From positions 1-51,587 of the forward strand of contig NZ_JAMSLR010000016.1 of NCBI RefSeq assembly GCF_023806485.1: a stretch of DNA of 51,587 bases, written 5' to 3'. The notes under the pieces are model-generated. The model worked only from the letters and a program-made list of their open reading frames with translations, was not told where the DNA came from and did not search any database. This stretch comes from Thermalbibacter longus (GTDB lineage Bacteria; Chloroflexota; Chloroflexia; Thermomicrobiales; Thermomicrobiaceae). Both the position numbers and the translations under genes were made by a program. Numbering within the stretch: position 1 is the first letter of the stretch; each line of letters starts with the position of its first letter. Of the stretch, positions 458 to 8,176 are shown piece by piece.

Positions 458-2086
458 GTGCCTGATCTCACCCCCGCCTTCGCCCTGACCGCGATCGTCC
501 TCATCCTGACCGCGCTCGCCTCCGGCATCGTGGCCCGAGTACCGATCTCCTATCCTCTCATCTTCCTCGTGCTCGGCGTCCTCCTCGGTCCGACCGGCTT
601 CGGGATCATCGACCTGACCCCGCACAGCCCAATGCTCGAGGTCATCACCATCCTTACTCTCGCGCTGGTGCTCTTCATCGATGCACTCAAGATTCGCTTC
701 GACGAGGTCGGCGATGACTGGCTCATCCCGATTCTCTCGCTCGGCCCAGGCACAATCCTGACAACCGCCGTCTACACCGTCGCCGCCTATGCGCTCTTCT
801 CCACCACGCTCGCCGAGTCGCTGCTGCTCGGAGCGATCCTCTCCTCGACGGACCCCGTTGTCCTGCGTGACGTGCTCCGCGATGAGCGCATTCCCCGCTC
901 GGTCCGCCGGGCCCTCGGCGTGGAGGCCGGCACGAACGACCTGATCGTCTTGCCCATCGTTTTGATCTTGATCGCGATGTTAGAGTCATCCACCCAGAGC
1001 CTGGAGCGCTGGCTCGCCTTCCTGGGTCAGCTCTTCGTGCTGGGGCCGCTCGCCGGCATCGGGATCGGCTGGACTGGCGCTTGGTTGATGGCGAAGGCAG
1101 ATGCACGCTTCGGTATCTCTCGGCTGTACCAGGCGCTCTACGGGCTGGGGCTCGTGCTGGCCGCATACGTGGCCGGCGAGTCGATCGGGGGAAGCGGCTT
1201 CGTGGCAGCGTTCGCCGCCGGGGCAACCATCTCGATCAGCAATGTGGAGCTGTGCGATTGCTTCGTCGAGTACGGCGAGACTACCGCCGAGATCGCGATG
1301 CTCCTCGCCTTTACCCTCTTCGGCGCTCTCCTCTCGACCATGGTCACGCAGATCGAGCTGGTGCCGGCACTGCTCTTCGCTCTCGTCGGGATCGCGGTTG
1401 CTCGCCCGCTGGCGATGACTCTGGTGCTCCGACGAGCTGTCGCTAGCCGACAGGCCCGCCTCTTCATCAGTTGGTTCGGCCCCCGGGGTCTCAACTCGCT
1501 GCTCCTCGCTCTTCTAGCGATCCACAGCGGCGTCAGCGGTGCCGAGCGATTGCTCGCGATCGCTGGGGTGGTCGTCTTCGCTTCGGTGATCCTGCATGGC
1601 TCCTCTGCCACTCCGCTCGCCGCCTGGTATGGCCGGATAGTCGCTGAGGCAGCCCAAACGCCAGGGGAGGAGCGTGAGAGCACGGCCGCGGGGTTGTTTC
1701 GATCAACTGCCGGTGAGGTGCCACGGATATCGGCGAGCGAGCTGGCCGATCTGCTGGCCGGGCCTTCTCCGCCGCTGGTGCTCGACGTACGTGCTCGCGC
1801 GCACTACGCTGAGGACCAGGTGCGCATTCCCGGTAGCCTGCGTGTCCCGCCTGACCAGGTCGTGGAATGGGCCACAGGCCAGCCGCGCGACCGGCTGGTG
1901 GTCACCTACTGCACCTGACCGAACGAGGAGTCGAGCGCCCGTGCGGCGCGCCAGCTCCGGTCAATGGGTTTCGAAGCTGTGGCTCTGGAGGGCGGATTTC
2001 AGGCCTGGCGCGCCCGCTACCCGGTCGAGCCGATCGTCGAGGAAGGGGCGAGGGACATCTCGCCCTCGCGGAGCCGAGAATCCTAG
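458..2086 (+). CDS. CPA1 Na+/H+ antiporter fused to rhodanese; UGA (predicted Sec) at residue 487
   Basis: Residues 1 to about 400 form a multi-span CPA1/NhaP-type cation/proton exchanger, with the SSTDPVVL and EAGTNDL motifs of the ion-binding helices. Residues about 424-525 are a cytoplasmic rhodanese domain, as shown by VLDVRARAHY, IPGS and ALEGGFQAW. The start is GTG 458 after AGAGAGGAGAG; a longer upstream frame would run through the tRNA. The frame meets TGA at 1916-1918, then stays open for 55 further codons to TAG at 2084-2086. Those codons read as an intact rhodanese C-terminus. The TGA lies in the loop YCT-UGA-PNEESSARAA, and aligning this with CxxGxRSAxAA puts the UGA at the catalytic Cys. 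A SECIS-like hairpin follows. I therefore annotate one 542-residue selenoprotein. A single nonsense mutation (TGC to TGA) is the alternative; the same pattern in the SelW gene argues against it. Family roles and the Sec call are inference. Confidence 0.8.
1927..1958 (+). promoter_or_regulatory. Candidate bacterial SECIS element
   Basis: Directly downstream of TGA 1916-1918, GCGCC (1935-1939) pairs with GGCGC (1945-1949) around the 5-nt loop CGTGC (1940-1944). An outer stem GGAG (1927-1930)/CTCC (1955-1958) extends it across an internal loop. The apical loop starts 22 nt after the UGA and has G at its second position. This satisfies the usual bacterial SECIS rule: loop 16-37 nt from UGA, with a G in the first two loop bases. 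The same loop at the same offset occurs in the SelW gene. Confidence 0.65.
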
Positions 2087-2150: not shown

Positions 2151-3605
2151 TTACTTCGTGAGATAGACCATCGGCGGCTTCTGCTCGGTCGAGGGTGGCA
2201 CCGTGATCTCGAGATCGATGCTGCCCTGCAGCTTCACCTCGTACCCGATCAGCATCCCCGAGAGCGCGGCAGCGCTCTTGTTGCCATTGAACTGGATCGA
2301 GGTGCACGGCGCGTAGATCGTGCCCTCGATCGTCCAGGTCCCCGTGCCGGAGACCTTGAGGACGTTCACCGAGTTGCACGCGCCGGAGGCATTCGTATTG
2401 TCGATCCAGATCGCGATCTCATCCCACCGGGCGGCATCCCCGGTCTGCCCCCAACTCGTCCCGGCCGCCTTGGCATCGCGGATGGTCAACGTCTTGATCG
2501 TGTTGGATGCCACTGAGAATGTGCTTCCACCGGTGAAGTACAGGAGCACGCCATCGCCGCCATCGATTACCTGAACGCTATTCGACGGATCGAAACTGAC
2601 CCCATCGAAGCAGTAGATGCCGCGCTCGAGGATGATCGTATCTGCTTGCTTCAGGTTTTTGAGTGAGGTGGTCTTATTGGCCTGCGTGTAGTGGCCCGGA
2701 TGCAGCGTCAGCGTCTTGGTGGTCTCGTTCCAGCCAGGGGCCGGCGGATCGCCGCCGCAGGCCCCCTTGGTCAGCGGCGACGGCGTGCCCCAGAGCGGGT
2801 CGGTGACGCCGCCCATGCCACCTGCCGCGAAGCCGCTCACCTTAAAGGTCCCCTCGGGCTGCTTCACGATGCTGCCGGCAGCCTCGAGGTTCCCATCGAC
2901 CGACCCCTGGGTATTGCCGTTGAAGGTGATATCTGTATTCGACCCCACGCTGCCGCACGCCTGTGAGGGATCCTCGCAGACGATCGTGATGCAGGTGACC
3001 TTGGTGCACGATGTGCTCCCGGAGCCGCCCGCGCTCAGCCCGCCGAAGACCACGCCGTCCCCGTCTCGGCCGAGCGCCAGCAGCCCGAAGTGCTCGCCAG
3101 TGTTGATCACCGTCGCGGTAGCGGTGGCCGATACACTCCAGGGGCCGGTGTAGAGCGCGCGCAGGAAGAACGGTTCGAGCTGCCGCGTCACAGTCACGGT
3201 GACCTGTCGTGGGTGGAACGGTGGCGATGGCTTGAGGATCGGCGGCTGGACAACGGTGGTCGATCCGTCGTCGGGAAAGCCGTTCAGCCCGGCGAATCGC
3301 TCCGCAATGGCCTCGGCATCGGACTGGGTGACGAGACTCCCCGAGCTGTTGAGGTTGCGCGCCAGGGCCTTGCCCACCGCCATCGCGGCCGCGTCGGCCG
3401 CGTTCTGGGCCGCGCGTCGCTCGCTCATCAGGTAAGTGGCATCGATGGCAAGCGCGGTAAAGCCGATGAGGACGGTGATCATCAGCGCGAACAAGACCAT
3501 GACCTGGCCCGGCGCCTGACCCAGCCGGGCAGGGCGATCCCACGCGCTCGCGCGGGCCGTGGGAACGGTGCCCTTGCGGAATCGGGGATGTGGGAAGCGT
3601 GCCAT
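2151..3605 (-). CDS. TadG-like pilus-associated protein with Flp/TadE-type N-terminus
   Basis: A 484-residue protein. After a basic N-terminal segment, residues about 32-55 (GQVMVLFALMITVLIGFTAL) form one membrane helix. A DATYLMSERRAAQNAADAAAMA segment follows, typical of TadG/DUF2134-type putative Flp-pilus-assembly proteins. The remaining ~400 residues are predicted outside the membrane and are rich in Gly, Thr and Ser. They contain Cys clusters (SCTKVTC, CEDPSQAC) and beta-rich stretches. It is the last gene of a minus-strand operon, 15 bp after the TadE-like gene. No prepilin peptidase, TadA ATPase or secretin is in the window, so its role in a Tad secretion or pilus system rests on family resemblance. 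Confidence 0.75.
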   Translation of the reverse strand: MARFPHPRFRKGTVPTARASAWDRPARLGQAPGQVMVLFALMITVLIGFTALAIDATYLMSERRAAQNAADAAAMAVGKALARNLNSSGSLVTQSDAEAIAERFAGLNGFPDDGSTTVVQPPILKPSPPFHPRQVTVTVTRQLEPFFLRALYTGPWSVSATATATVINTGEHFGLLALGRDGDGVVFGGLSAGGSGSTSCTKVTCITIVCEDPSQACGSVGSNTDITFNGNTQGSVDGNLEAAGSIVKQPEGTFKVSGFAAGGMGGVTDPLWGTPSPLTKGACGGDPPAPGWNETTKTLTLHPGHYTQANKTTSLKNLKQADTIILERGIYCFDGVSFDPSNSVQVIDGGDGVLLYFTGGSTFSVASNTIKTLTIRDAKAAGTSWGQTGDAARWDEIAIWIDNTNASGACNSVNVLKVSGTGTWTIEGTIYAPCTSIQFNGNKSAAALSGMLIGYEVKLQGSIDLEITVPPSTEQKPPMVYLTK

Positions 3606-3620
3606 AGCTGCTCGTCCCCC

Positions 3621-4076
3621 TCAATAGTGAATCCGCATCGTGCTAGAGGCACTCATCGGGATCGACACATCGAAGACGATTCCAACCGCCGGCTGGAAGG
3701 TGTACGTCGCAGTCACCGTCACCTCGACACCAGGTCGATTGGGCATGTTCGGGCAGATAGCCTGGTTGGGTACCGTCCCGGACCCGAGGCTATCCGACCA
3801 GGTCGCCGTCAGCGTGAGGGCGTTCGGATCGATACCTTGCACCAGGTCGCGGACATAGGGCGTGAGGTACTTCGAGTAGTTGGATGGGGTCACCGATGGG
3901 TTCCCCACGCAGCCGTGGGCTGCGGCGTAGCGAGCGCCTTCGCGAGCCGCATTGCGGAGCTGGCCATACACGAACACGGCTCGGCCAGCCTCGATGACGC
4001 CAAAGACCAGCATAAAGAAAACCATCGCCCCGAGGGCGAACTCGACCGTTGCCTGACCCCGCCTGACACGCTTCAT
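3621..4076 (-). CDS. TadE-like pilus minor protein
   Basis: A 151-residue protein whose N-terminus (RRGQATVEFALGAMVFFMLVFGVIEAGRAVF) is the TadE family signature. A short basic tail precedes G/QATVEFAL and one membrane helix (about residues 12-34). NAAREGARYAAAHG follows, a typical post-helix TadE sequence. The C-terminal ~100 residues are predicted extracytoplasmic. Its ATG overlaps the end of the upstream TadE-like gene by 4 nt (ATGA), indicating translational coupling. Confidence 0.85.
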   Translation of the reverse strand: MKRVRRGQATVEFALGAMVFFMLVFGVIEAGRAVFVYGQLRNAAREGARYAAAHGCVGNPSVTPSNYSKYLTPYVRDLVQGIDPNALTLTATWSDSLGSGTVPNQAICPNMPNRPGVEVTVTATYTFQPAVGIVFDVSIPMSASSTMRIHY

Positions 4077-4636
4077 GGCCCCACATCCTTACAGCCACCG
4101 GCCGGATCTACCGTGGGGTCGTACCAGGGCCGGAACTGGACGCGCATCTGGGCAGTGCGCGACAGGCGCACCGAGTCTGGTAGCCCAGGCACTGGAAAGA
4201 TCGGGTGGAACTCGTACTCCACGCGGACGATCGCGATGCACTCCGGCATCGCTTCCGTGCCCATCCCTGGCTCGGCTTTCGAGTCAGGATCCTTGAGGAT
4301 CGAGCTCACGGTGACAACTGGCTGCTCCCCCCAGATGGTATGGTCGCTCCCGAGCTCATCCATTGCGGCAGTAATCATCTTCTGCTCGATCGCATCGACG
4401 TCGTCGCTCGGCGAGAGGAACGCTCCCATCGAGCCGTACTGCGCGCCGGCGCGCGCCATGTTGCCGAGCTGCACCCAGGCGGTAAAGGCGCGACCGAACT
4501 CGAACAGGGCGAGAATCAGCAACAGGAGGAAACCGGCAATGACGGCCAGCTCAACCAGAGCCTGCCCAGGGTGGTATGGAAGGCTCGGAGGTCGGCGCGC
4601 TACTCGCGGCCCGGTCCCCTCGCTGCTCAGGACCAT
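4073..4636 (-). CDS. TadE-like pilus protein, first gene of the operon
   Basis: A 187-residue protein with GQALVELAVIAGFLLLLILAL at residues 24-44, a TadE-type N-terminal helix, followed by FEFGRAFTAWVQLGNMARAGAQYGS. It is paralogous in plan to the next gene and probably forms a heteromer with it. The N-terminal ~22 residues before the helix are long for the family. A later start is possible, but no better in-frame start was seen. The gene overlaps its downstream partner by 4 nt and heads a three-gene minus-strand operon. Confidence 0.8.
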   Translation of the reverse strand: MVLSSEGTGPRVARRPPSLPYHPGQALVELAVIAGFLLLLILALFEFGRAFTAWVQLGNMARAGAQYGSMGAFLSPSDDVDAIEQKMITAAMDELGSDHTIWGEQPVVTVSSILKDPDSKAEPGMGTEAMPECIAIVRVEYEFHPIFPVPGLPDSVRLSRTAQMRVQFRPWYDPTVDPAGGCKDVGP

Positions 4637-5133
4637 ACCTGCTCACCCCGATCAGCGAGACCAACAACAGAAAAACCGGCTCAACCCTCTCGTCGGCCGG
4701 TTGCGCCACTCGCTCAGCGCGGGCCAGGCGCCCATACTAGAGCCCACGCGTCATCGCTGCCGTTTCGGGTTACTCGATTGTGTCCTGCGCCAGAGGCTCA
4801 GCGTACTGTCAGCACCGCCCTCAATGGCCCTCCCTCAGGAGCGATAGGCAGAGCCTCTGCGCGGCGACGTGGCCGCCAGTGCGCATTCTGACAGGCTACC
4901 CTTCCTGTCGACAGGATAGAGGAATGGTAAGTAGAGTCAAGAGTACGAATGTACCGTGGCGCCGTTTTGTATAGTCGCACCCCGTTCACGGTCCTCCGGC
5001 ACCCCGCCCAGCATGCATACACAGGCAACAGCAGCGGGCGGCAAGGCATGGTGGCTTCTATCCTGCGCCCTTTGATCTAGCTATGCGGGTCGTTCTATAC
5101 TGCTACAGCACCTTGAGCTGAAAGGAATCGGCT
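4637..5133. other. Divergent intergenic region, no gene seen
   Basis: About 500 bp separate the minus-strand Tad operon from the plus-strand NTF2-like gene. Base composition drops locally (AT-richer stretches around 4910-4975 and 5060-5105), as expected of a promoter-bearing spacer. I see no convincing coding frame, tRNA or long repeat. A promoter for the rightward gene is listed separately; the leftward promoter was not identified. Confidence 0.5.
5072..5101 (+). promoter_or_regulatory. Sigma70-like promoter for the NTF2-like gene
   Basis: TTGATC (5072-5077), an 18-bp spacer and TATACT (5096-5101) lie 32 bp upstream of the ATG at 5134. The ribosome binding site AAAGGA sits in between. Confidence 0.5.
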
Positions 5134-6761: not shown

Positions 6762-7949
6762 TCACCCGCCCAGCAGTCGCACCACCACGCCAATCGCCCC
6801 GCCGGCGAGCACCAGCCACGCGGAGTTCACCTTGAAGCGCAGCAAGAGCACGAGCGCTATCAGCGCCAGCCCAGCCGTCAGTGGATCGACGATCGCCTCC
6901 CGGCCGAGCTGCCACGAGACCGCCGCCATCAGCGCCATTGCTGCCACGTTCACGCCGTCCAGCAGCGGCGCCGTCCACGGGGAACGCCGCAGGCGCGGAA
7001 CGAACGGCTCGATGGCGGCGACAAAGAGGAACGACGGTAGGAAGATCCCGATCGTCGCCAGGACCGCGCCGGGCCAGCCGGCCACCAGGTATCCGACGAA
7101 CGTCGCGGTCGTGAAGACTGGCCCCGGGGTGAACTGGCCAACGGCCACGGCGTCGAGGAGCTGCTGGTCGGTAAGCCAGCCGAGCCGCTCGACGAAGTCG
7201 CGACGCAGGAACGCCAGCAGCACGTAGCCACTGCCATAGAGCACCGCGCCGATTTTGAGGAACGTGAGGAAAAGCTGGAGCAGGCTAACCGGCACCGCCG
7301 GCGCCGCGAGCGAGAGGGCCGGCAGCGGCAGGCCACCGAGCGGCAACAGCATCGCAGCCGAGCTGCCCCGCCATTGCCGCGCAAGGTGAACCAGCAGTAC
7401 GGCGAGCGCACCGCCGAACAGGATGGCGATCTCATTGATTCCCAGGAAGTACAGTACCAGCGCGGCCAGGCCCACTGTCGCCAGGAAGACACTCCGCACG
7501 GCCGCGCGCGCCAGCCCCCAGAGCGCCTGGCCGACGATCGCGATGATCACCGGTTTGATCCCATAGAGTAGCCAGCCAGCCTCAGGCGTGGAGCCCCAGC
7601 GCACGTAGGCCCAGGCAAGGCCCAGCACCATGAGCGCGGCCGGCGTGATGAACAGCGTCCCGGCGGCAATCAACCCGCGCCAGCCCGCCCGCAGGTACCC
7701 GCAGTGGATCACCATTTCTGTCGAGTTCGGGCCAGGGATCAGGTTGGTGGCGCCGATCAGGTCGAGGAAGTACTGTTCACTCAGCCAGCGCCGGCGGACG
7801 ACCACCTCCTCGCGGAGCATGGCGATGTGGGCTGCCGGGCCGCCGAACGCCGTGAATCCCAGCTTGAGCGCAACCCACGCCACCTCCCCGAGCGGCCCTG
7901 GCTCCACAGCCGGCACCGTGCGTCCTGTCGCCATCTCCCGATCGGGCAT
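6762..7949 (-). CDS. chrA: Chromate transporter family protein, two-domain ChrA
   Basis: A 395-residue integral membrane protein with the two homologous halves of long-chain ChrA. The N-terminal half carries FTAFGGPAAHIAMLREEVV...FLDLIGATNLIPGPNSTEM, the classic GGPAAH and GPNSTEM motifs. The C-terminal half repeats the plan with LTFLKIGAVLYGSGYVLLAFL and AVGQFTPGPVFTTATFVGY. The family exports chromate, possibly in exchange with sulfate. Start ATG 7949 is chosen because AGGGGAGGTGG lies 5 nt before it; an upstream in-frame extension to 8078 has no such site. The gene appears monocistronic. Confidence 0.9.
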   Translation of the reverse strand: MPDREMATGRTVPAVEPGPLGEVAWVALKLGFTAFGGPAAHIAMLREEVVVRRRWLSEQYFLDLIGATNLIPGPNSTEMVIHCGYLRAGWRGLIAAGTLFITPAALMVLGLAWAYVRWGSTPEAGWLLYGIKPVIIAIVGQALWGLARAAVRSVFLATVGLAALVLYFLGINEIAILFGGALAVLLVHLARQWRGSSAAMLLPLGGLPLPALSLAAPAVPVSLLQLFLTFLKIGAVLYGSGYVLLAFLRRDFVERLGWLTDQQLLDAVAVGQFTPGPVFTTATFVGYLVAGWPGAVLATIGIFLPSFLFVAAIEPFVPRLRRSPWTAPLLDGVNVAAMALMAAVSWQLGREAIVDPLTAGLALIALVLLLRFKVNSAWLVLAGGAIGVVVRLLGG

Positions 7950-8176
7950 CCACCTCCCCTTCGCACGATGCGGTATCGATACCTGCCAGCCAGCAGGCTG
8001 CGCCGGCAGTATACCAGCGGGCGCTTCCGCCACTGTGAACGCTCGATGACCAATCTTGTATCTATCTCCGGCGCGCACCCTCCCCTCGATACGACGCTGC
8101 GGGTAGCATTGCGCCGGTCGCGCCGCTCGGCTCGGGCGGGACGCACCGGCAGAGCGTCGTGTGAAACGGGGAAGCG

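Follow-up and report, generated by a model that had tools for sequence, protein, structure and literature searches.

Analysis of the window, i.e., the whole stretch of 51,587 nucleotides, revealed close to its beginning a forward-strand gene in which an antiporter domain is followed by a rhodanese domain with an in-frame TGA. The features of this gene referred to below are the following:

458–2086, + strand: antiporter–selenorhodanese gene, 542 residues with the UGA taken as selenocysteine (Sec)
506–1627, + strand: CPA1-type antiporter domain, residues 17–390 (PF00999, Na_H_Exchanger, E 7e-42)
923–940, + strand: ion-site motif E156...N160-D161 (ND), equivalent to PaNhaP E154, N158 and D159 (profile alignment, 4cza)
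1253–1261, + strand: Cys-x-Cys pair (C266, D267, C268; ELCDCF), cytoplasmic start of helix 10
1484–1486, + strand: R343, equivalent to PaNhaP R337 (profile alignment, 4cza)
1730–2014, + strand: rhodanese domain, residues 425–519, spanning the TGA (PF00581, E 3e-11)
1910–1912, + strand: C485, Cys of the C-x-U motif, invariant in 25 relatives
1916–1918, + strand: UGA at codon 487, putatively decoded as selenocysteine, catalytic position of the rhodanese
1935–1949, + strand: predicted bacterial SECIS element 21 nt 3' of the UGA, a hairpin with loop CGUGC and a stem of 5 bp (GCGCC/GGCGC)

The gene starts with a GTG at 458, preceded by AGGAG (448–452) and located at the position where HRbin26 and other homologues also start, and ends with a TAG (2084–2086). 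Exactly one internal stop, the TGA at codon 487, was found in this frame, with 55 in-frame codons after it. PF00999 and PF00581 were the only Pfam matches in the protein and follow one another in a single frame, in agreement with the antiporter–rhodanese fusion proposed by the original prediction, which was made from the sequence alone; its claim that the frame runs past the TGA as a rhodanese C-terminus was likewise borne out, as the Pfam rhodanese match extends across this codon.

Upstream of the fusion gene lie a 5S rRNA and a tRNA-Met, and downstream of it convergent Tad pilus genes (TadE/TadG-like, 2151–4636, minus strand). A c-di-GMP-II riboswitch (4688–4770, minus strand; 56.2 bits, gathering cutoff 53.5) is located directly upstream of the latter, which suggests control of Tad pilus expression by c-di-GMP. 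The window also contains a chromate transporter gene (6762–8078, minus strand); elsewhere, ChrE-type rhodaneses have been associated with resistance to chromate, and no link between this transporter and the fusion was seen. Along 46 fusion loci, no recurrent gene neighbour was detected apart from local synteny shared by a handful of SAR202-type genomes, and therefore the surroundings offer no clue to an operon or pathway.

The length of the open frame was dropped as evidence for a selenoprotein, since in this window of 66% GC, by composition, an open frame of at least 55 codons follows 24% of the TGAs. The selenoprotein case rests, therefore, on homology. What goes beyond chance is the conserved rhodanese sequence 3' of the TGA, the presence of the same TGA codon in 65 loci, and the SECIS hairpin.

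Among 121 genomes, ranging from the genus of the window up to its class, all the 25 fusions with a readable rhodanese site carried TGA at this codon. When 84,980 species genomes were scanned, 80 loci were obtained, 47 of them with a readable site, corresponding to 40 TGA and 7 TGC forms. Altogether, 65 TGA and 7 TGC loci were counted at the same codon, the first figure being a number of loci from two genome sets that partly overlap. The original prediction had proposed a search for homologues with Cys aligned to the UGA, which these seven loci provide, and had named an eroded downstream sequence in relatives as evidence against it, of which no case was found. The closest relative was bacterium HR26 (HRbin26), with 88% protein identity. 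TGA carriers within the Chloroflexota included Thermomicrobiales, Dictyobacter aurantiacus, Ktedonospora formicarum, and Candidatus Chloroploca, and within the Acidobacteriota, Acidobacteriaceae bacterium KBS 96, Bryobacteraceae, and Pyrinomonadaceae; further ones belonged to the Gemmatimonadota, one Rubrobacteraceae bin, and one Pseudomonadota bin. TGC was found in Anaerolineaceae, a "Bacteroidetes" bin, Nitriliruptoraceae, Candidatus Manganitrophus, and one unclassified bin. The fusion architecture is thus present in at least five bacterial phyla, its spread covering Chloroflexota/Thermomicrobiota, Acidobacteriota, Gemmatimonadota, Actinomycetota, and the Pseudomonadota bin; a plasmid search did not find it.

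Some of the loci departed from the common organization. The minus-strand fusion L043 has 206 open codons after the UGA, versus the usual 41–60, and may carry an extra C-terminal domain. In L073 (Dehalococcoidia NORP26), a frame change interrupts the antiporter and a stop falls where residue 156 would be, due to either an assembly error or decay. In L092 (Candidatus Manganitrophus), a Cys form in whose genome selA was not found, antiporter and rhodanese lie in different frames, either through a frameshift or as a split gene or two genes. Finally, L037, L072, L074, L075, and L078 are antiporters with the Cys-x-Cys pair and without a rhodanese match that end at or near contig ends.

The sequence around the UGA reads Y-C-T-U-P-N-E-E-S-S-A-R-A-A. 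Alignment of a profile of 19 fusions with the rhodaneses 6mxv and 1yt8 placed residue 487 at the catalytic Cys, i.e., where the nucleophile of a rhodanese is expected, with C485 two positions earlier. The hand alignment in the original prediction had reached the same assignment and had also noticed the other Cys two residues before the UGA (C-T-U), which turned out to be invariant. The catalytic residue of the rhodanese domain is almost certainly selenocysteine. The tail after the UGA keeps the rhodanese signature GG-x-x-AW across phyla, and its dN/dS against HRbin26 was 0.116 for residues 488–525 and 0.197 for residues 488–542, compared with 0.135 for the antiporter; these ratios indicate that the tail is under purifying selection.

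Folding of the 25-sequence alignment with RNAalifold revealed exactly one helix, between columns 20–24 and 30–34, corresponding to 1935–1939 paired with 1945–1949. Pairing was kept in 125 of 125 cells over the 25 rows (100%) and in 249 of 250 (99.6%) over the 50 sequences, all distinct, of alignment A3, with compensatory changes at three of the five pairs (C-G to U-A, G-C to A-U, and C-G to U-A). None of the shuffled controls equalled the observed pairing, which fell to 22–61% when the partner strand was slid by one to three columns. Bacterial SECIS elements are described as having a loop of 3–9 nt, a stem of 4–16 bp, a distance of 16–37 nt from the UGA, and a minimum free energy (MFE) of −7.5 kcal/mol or lower, with a G at loop position one or two that in most cases precedes a G or U (PMC13188914). 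The hairpin lies within all these limits (5-nt loop, 5 bp, 21 nt, −9.3 kcal/mol), and the second nucleotide of its loop is a G that precedes U or G. Both the published constraints and covariation consequently support a conserved bacterial SECIS element, for which a search had been suggested together with the original prediction. When the 51 nt from the UGA were folded alone, a different MFE structure that pairs the UGA itself was obtained (z −1.9); it was rejected, as the alignment fold and the pair counts favour the short hairpin.

Codon freezing is the strongest evidence for the predicted SECIS. Among the TGA forms, positions +6, +7, +9, and +10 showed the same codon in 95–100% of the pairs that share the residue, versus 20–65% at most other positions and 0–45% at the same hairpin codons of the TGC forms. 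Ser+6 is AGC or AGU, Ala+7 is GCC without exception, the third base at +9 is invariably G, and +10 is almost always GCG, whereas Leu+13 uses six codons (0.20) and Gly+17 is similarly free (0.28). Upon synonymous recoding of the window gene, all five SECIS pairs survived in 3.5% of the draws. Pairing alone cannot separate the TGA and TGC groups, because the TGC form L055 can still make five pairs; loop, sequence, and codon freezing do separate them.

The genome of the window (3.63 Mb, 99.9% complete) contains selA (531 bits), selB (346 bits), selD (376 bits), and a tRNA-Sec with anticodon UCA, the machinery whose presence had been put forward as a check. Its selD (L010, C1:375586-376518) has an in-frame UGA of its own at the usual active-site Sec position (CAG-UGA-AGK), and it is a second selenoprotein gene in this genome. 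All the 25 TGA relatives bearing the fusion have selA, two of them as contig-edge fragments. Among 20 named fusion genomes, selA was found over the cutoff in 13 of 13 with TGA and in two of seven with TGC (Fisher p 0.0014). These two, both Nitriliruptoraceae, possess selA and yet use the Cys form, and the fusion can therefore do without Sec.

A maximum-likelihood tree of 62 rows, from which L073 and L092 were left out, grouped the fusions together against the unfused antiporters (100/100) and required at least three changes to account for TGC. The Anaerolineaceae-type TGC group was nested within the TGA forms, beside a TGA form from Dehalococcoidia (100/99), and in none of the three genomes of this TGC group did selA exceed the cutoff, a pattern that reads as the replacement of Sec by Cys upon loss of Sec decoding.

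By every computational test available, this is a real selenoprotein gene. We hold it to be very probable that the UGA at 1916–1918 encodes Sec in a 542-residue antiporter with a cytoplasmic selenorhodanese tail; the SECIS just 3' of the UGA would recruit SelB with the Sec-tRNA, and Sec would then actually be inserted at this codon. If the UGA were instead a genuine stop, the product would be a 486-residue antiporter followed by a decaying remnant, as could be thought from the end of the antiporter domain well upstream of the UGA and from the frequency with which long open frames follow TGAs in the window. However, a tail conserved across phyla with its GG-x-x-AW signature and under apparent purifying selection, the frozen hairpin codons, and the substitution of TGC for TGA in genomes mostly without selA are contrary to this explanation, which the comparative data refute and which we regard as highly improbable. 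Even less credit can be given to a sequencing error or a general reassignment of TGA in this genome, for which no support was found: the same TGA appears in 65 loci from mostly independent assemblies, seven of 17 long ORFs of the window end in TGA, as do many of the fusions, and tRNA-Sec(UCA) is present along with selA, selB, and selD. Both variants are considered refuted.

A different possibility accepts Sec decoding and makes it responsive to selenium, with the full fusion produced when selenium is available and a truncated antiporter, devoid of the C-terminal half of the rhodanese, when it is not, in such a way that selenium supply itself would set antiporter behaviour. Decoding of UGA depends on the supply of Sec-tRNA, and the codon lies past a complete transport domain; however, the Cys forms are incapable of a dual output and retain the fusion nevertheless, and we see this possibility as rather unlikely.

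In an AlphaFold model (mean pLDDT 81.7), the antiporter part has 13 predicted helices, with helices 5 and 12 broken, and Foldseek returned PaNhaP as the first match and MjNhaP1 among the best ones. The roles of E154, N158, D159, and R337 in PaNhaP are described (PMC4381880); of the equivalent residues, E156, N160, and D161 are conserved throughout the homologues and R343 in nearly all of them. The PF00999 match, the NhaP-like fold, and the ND motif on helix 6 assign the domain to CPA1; the motif marks the type and does not, from sequence, predict which ion is moved.

The Cys-x-Cys pair was present in 71 of 71 fusion rows, including Sec and Cys forms, and in two of 32 unfused antiporters (27–36% identity). 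As the fusions are monophyletic, the pair could mark one clade and not coupling to the rhodanese. Two distant antiporters in which no rhodanese was detected, L110 and L116, also have Cys-x-Cys at this position of helix 10. In an alignment gapless through helix 10, C266 and C268 correspond to PaNhaP positions 287 and 289, where PaNhaP has no such pair, adjacent to E290 and a helical turn ahead of H292. Helix 10 of PaNhaP protrudes on the cytoplasmic side, the side on which helix 13 has its C-terminus as well. A chain of hydrogen bonds leads from E290 to E73, which coordinates the ion, and H292 lies at the dimer interface; an H292C variant cross-links and shows 35% of the wild-type activity when cross-linked and 150% when reduced (PMC4381880). 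By analogy with this effect, a Cys pair at the aligned site, on the same side of the membrane as the rhodanese, could plausibly control exchange. The AlphaFold model provides no contact between the domains, because the linker (residues 399–419) is of low confidence.

Tentatively, we propose that Sec487/Cys485 acts on C266-x-C268 and tunes antiport to the redox or sulfur state. Sec487 and Cys485 would either form a selenylsulfide or carry sulfane sulfur, and exchange it with C266-x-C268, located on helix 10 at its cytoplasmic end and at, or close to, the dimer interface; ion/proton exchange would then be opened or closed by the cellular redox or sulfane-sulfur state. Formulated as a selenocysteine-gated antiporter, in which the Cys-x-Sec rhodanese introduces or removes a disulfide or persulfide at the Cys-x-Cys pair and thereby directly sets exchange, the proposal stays a possibility to which we give somewhat less than even credence; a thiol or persulfide switch that relies on selenium to regulate ion exchange is plausible. 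Which ion moves, the action of the rhodanese on the pair, and the direction of regulation are what we infer here. The original prediction had also conceived a link between thiol state and ion exchange, and the invariant pair makes it more specific than was supposed there; together, the two motifs, CxU and CxC, sharpen a loose notion of thiol-controlled exchange into one that mutagenesis can address. About as likely, in our opinion, the antiporter would be a mere membrane anchor, and the selenorhodanese would handle thiosulfate, polysulfide, or peroxide-derived sulfur without controlling transport. Rhodaneses are fused to many proteins, and the relatives of this one in family NF041203 are catalogued as CxU proteins without known function. 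However, conservation of the ion-site residues argues for more than an anchoring role of the antiporter, and the Cys-x-Cys pair is invariant. Selenium chemistry and ion homeostasis are joined in one polypeptide by this architecture.

With respect to known systems, NF041203 was the best NCBIfam rhodanese match for every fusion tested and shares the Cys-x-Sec active site (here C485-T-U487); however, it is a single-domain model of 126 positions, whereas the fusions add an N-terminal antiporter. Against its cutoff of 115, the window protein scored 89.7 bits (E 1e-25) and eight other fusions 81–99, so annotation by this model is expected to stop at the UGA, with loss of the catalytic half of the rhodanese domain. 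The family is listed as "Rhodanese-like domain-containing protein form 3", CxU, in Table 1 of a 2026 catalogue that includes five rhodanese-like selenoprotein forms and several transporter-related selenoproteins (PMC13188914), in line with the statement of the original prediction that rhodanese-like selenoproteins had been reported. It had also known of no description of an antiporter selenoprotein, and we found none: the words antiporter, exchanger, and sodium are absent from that catalogue (PMC13188914), the 2005 Sargasso Sea and the 2016 and 2025 selenoprotein surveys do not mention an antiporter, and a search of the open-access literature for selenoprotein and antiporter gave no relevant paper. 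The transport domain shares with PaNhaP and MjNhaP1 the fold, 13 helices of which 5 and 12 are broken, the ND motif, and the E/R pair, but these two antiporters lack a rhodanese and are about 23% identical to the fusion. Its best NCBIfam match was the potassium/proton antiporter NF003716 (PRK05326, YcgO/CvrA type), limited to the membrane part and at 180 bits, below the cutoff of 355. The glutathione-gated K+/H+ exchangers KefB and KefC (PMC10224563) likewise tie cation/proton exchange to thiol chemistry through a cytoplasmic domain at the C-terminus, although theirs is a KTN domain that binds glutathione conjugates, not a rhodanese, and involves no selenium; no KefC-type KTN (TrkA-N) domain was found by Pfam in the fusion protein. 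TsoB (NF045694, rhodanese/DsbD fusion-like selenoprotein) is also a selenium-containing rhodanese fused to another domain, but with a different partner and the motif UxxxxU, and the fusions reached about 20 bits versus its cutoff of 805. In conclusion, the CxU selenorhodanese chemistry is already known, and what is new is its widespread architecture fused to an antiporter.
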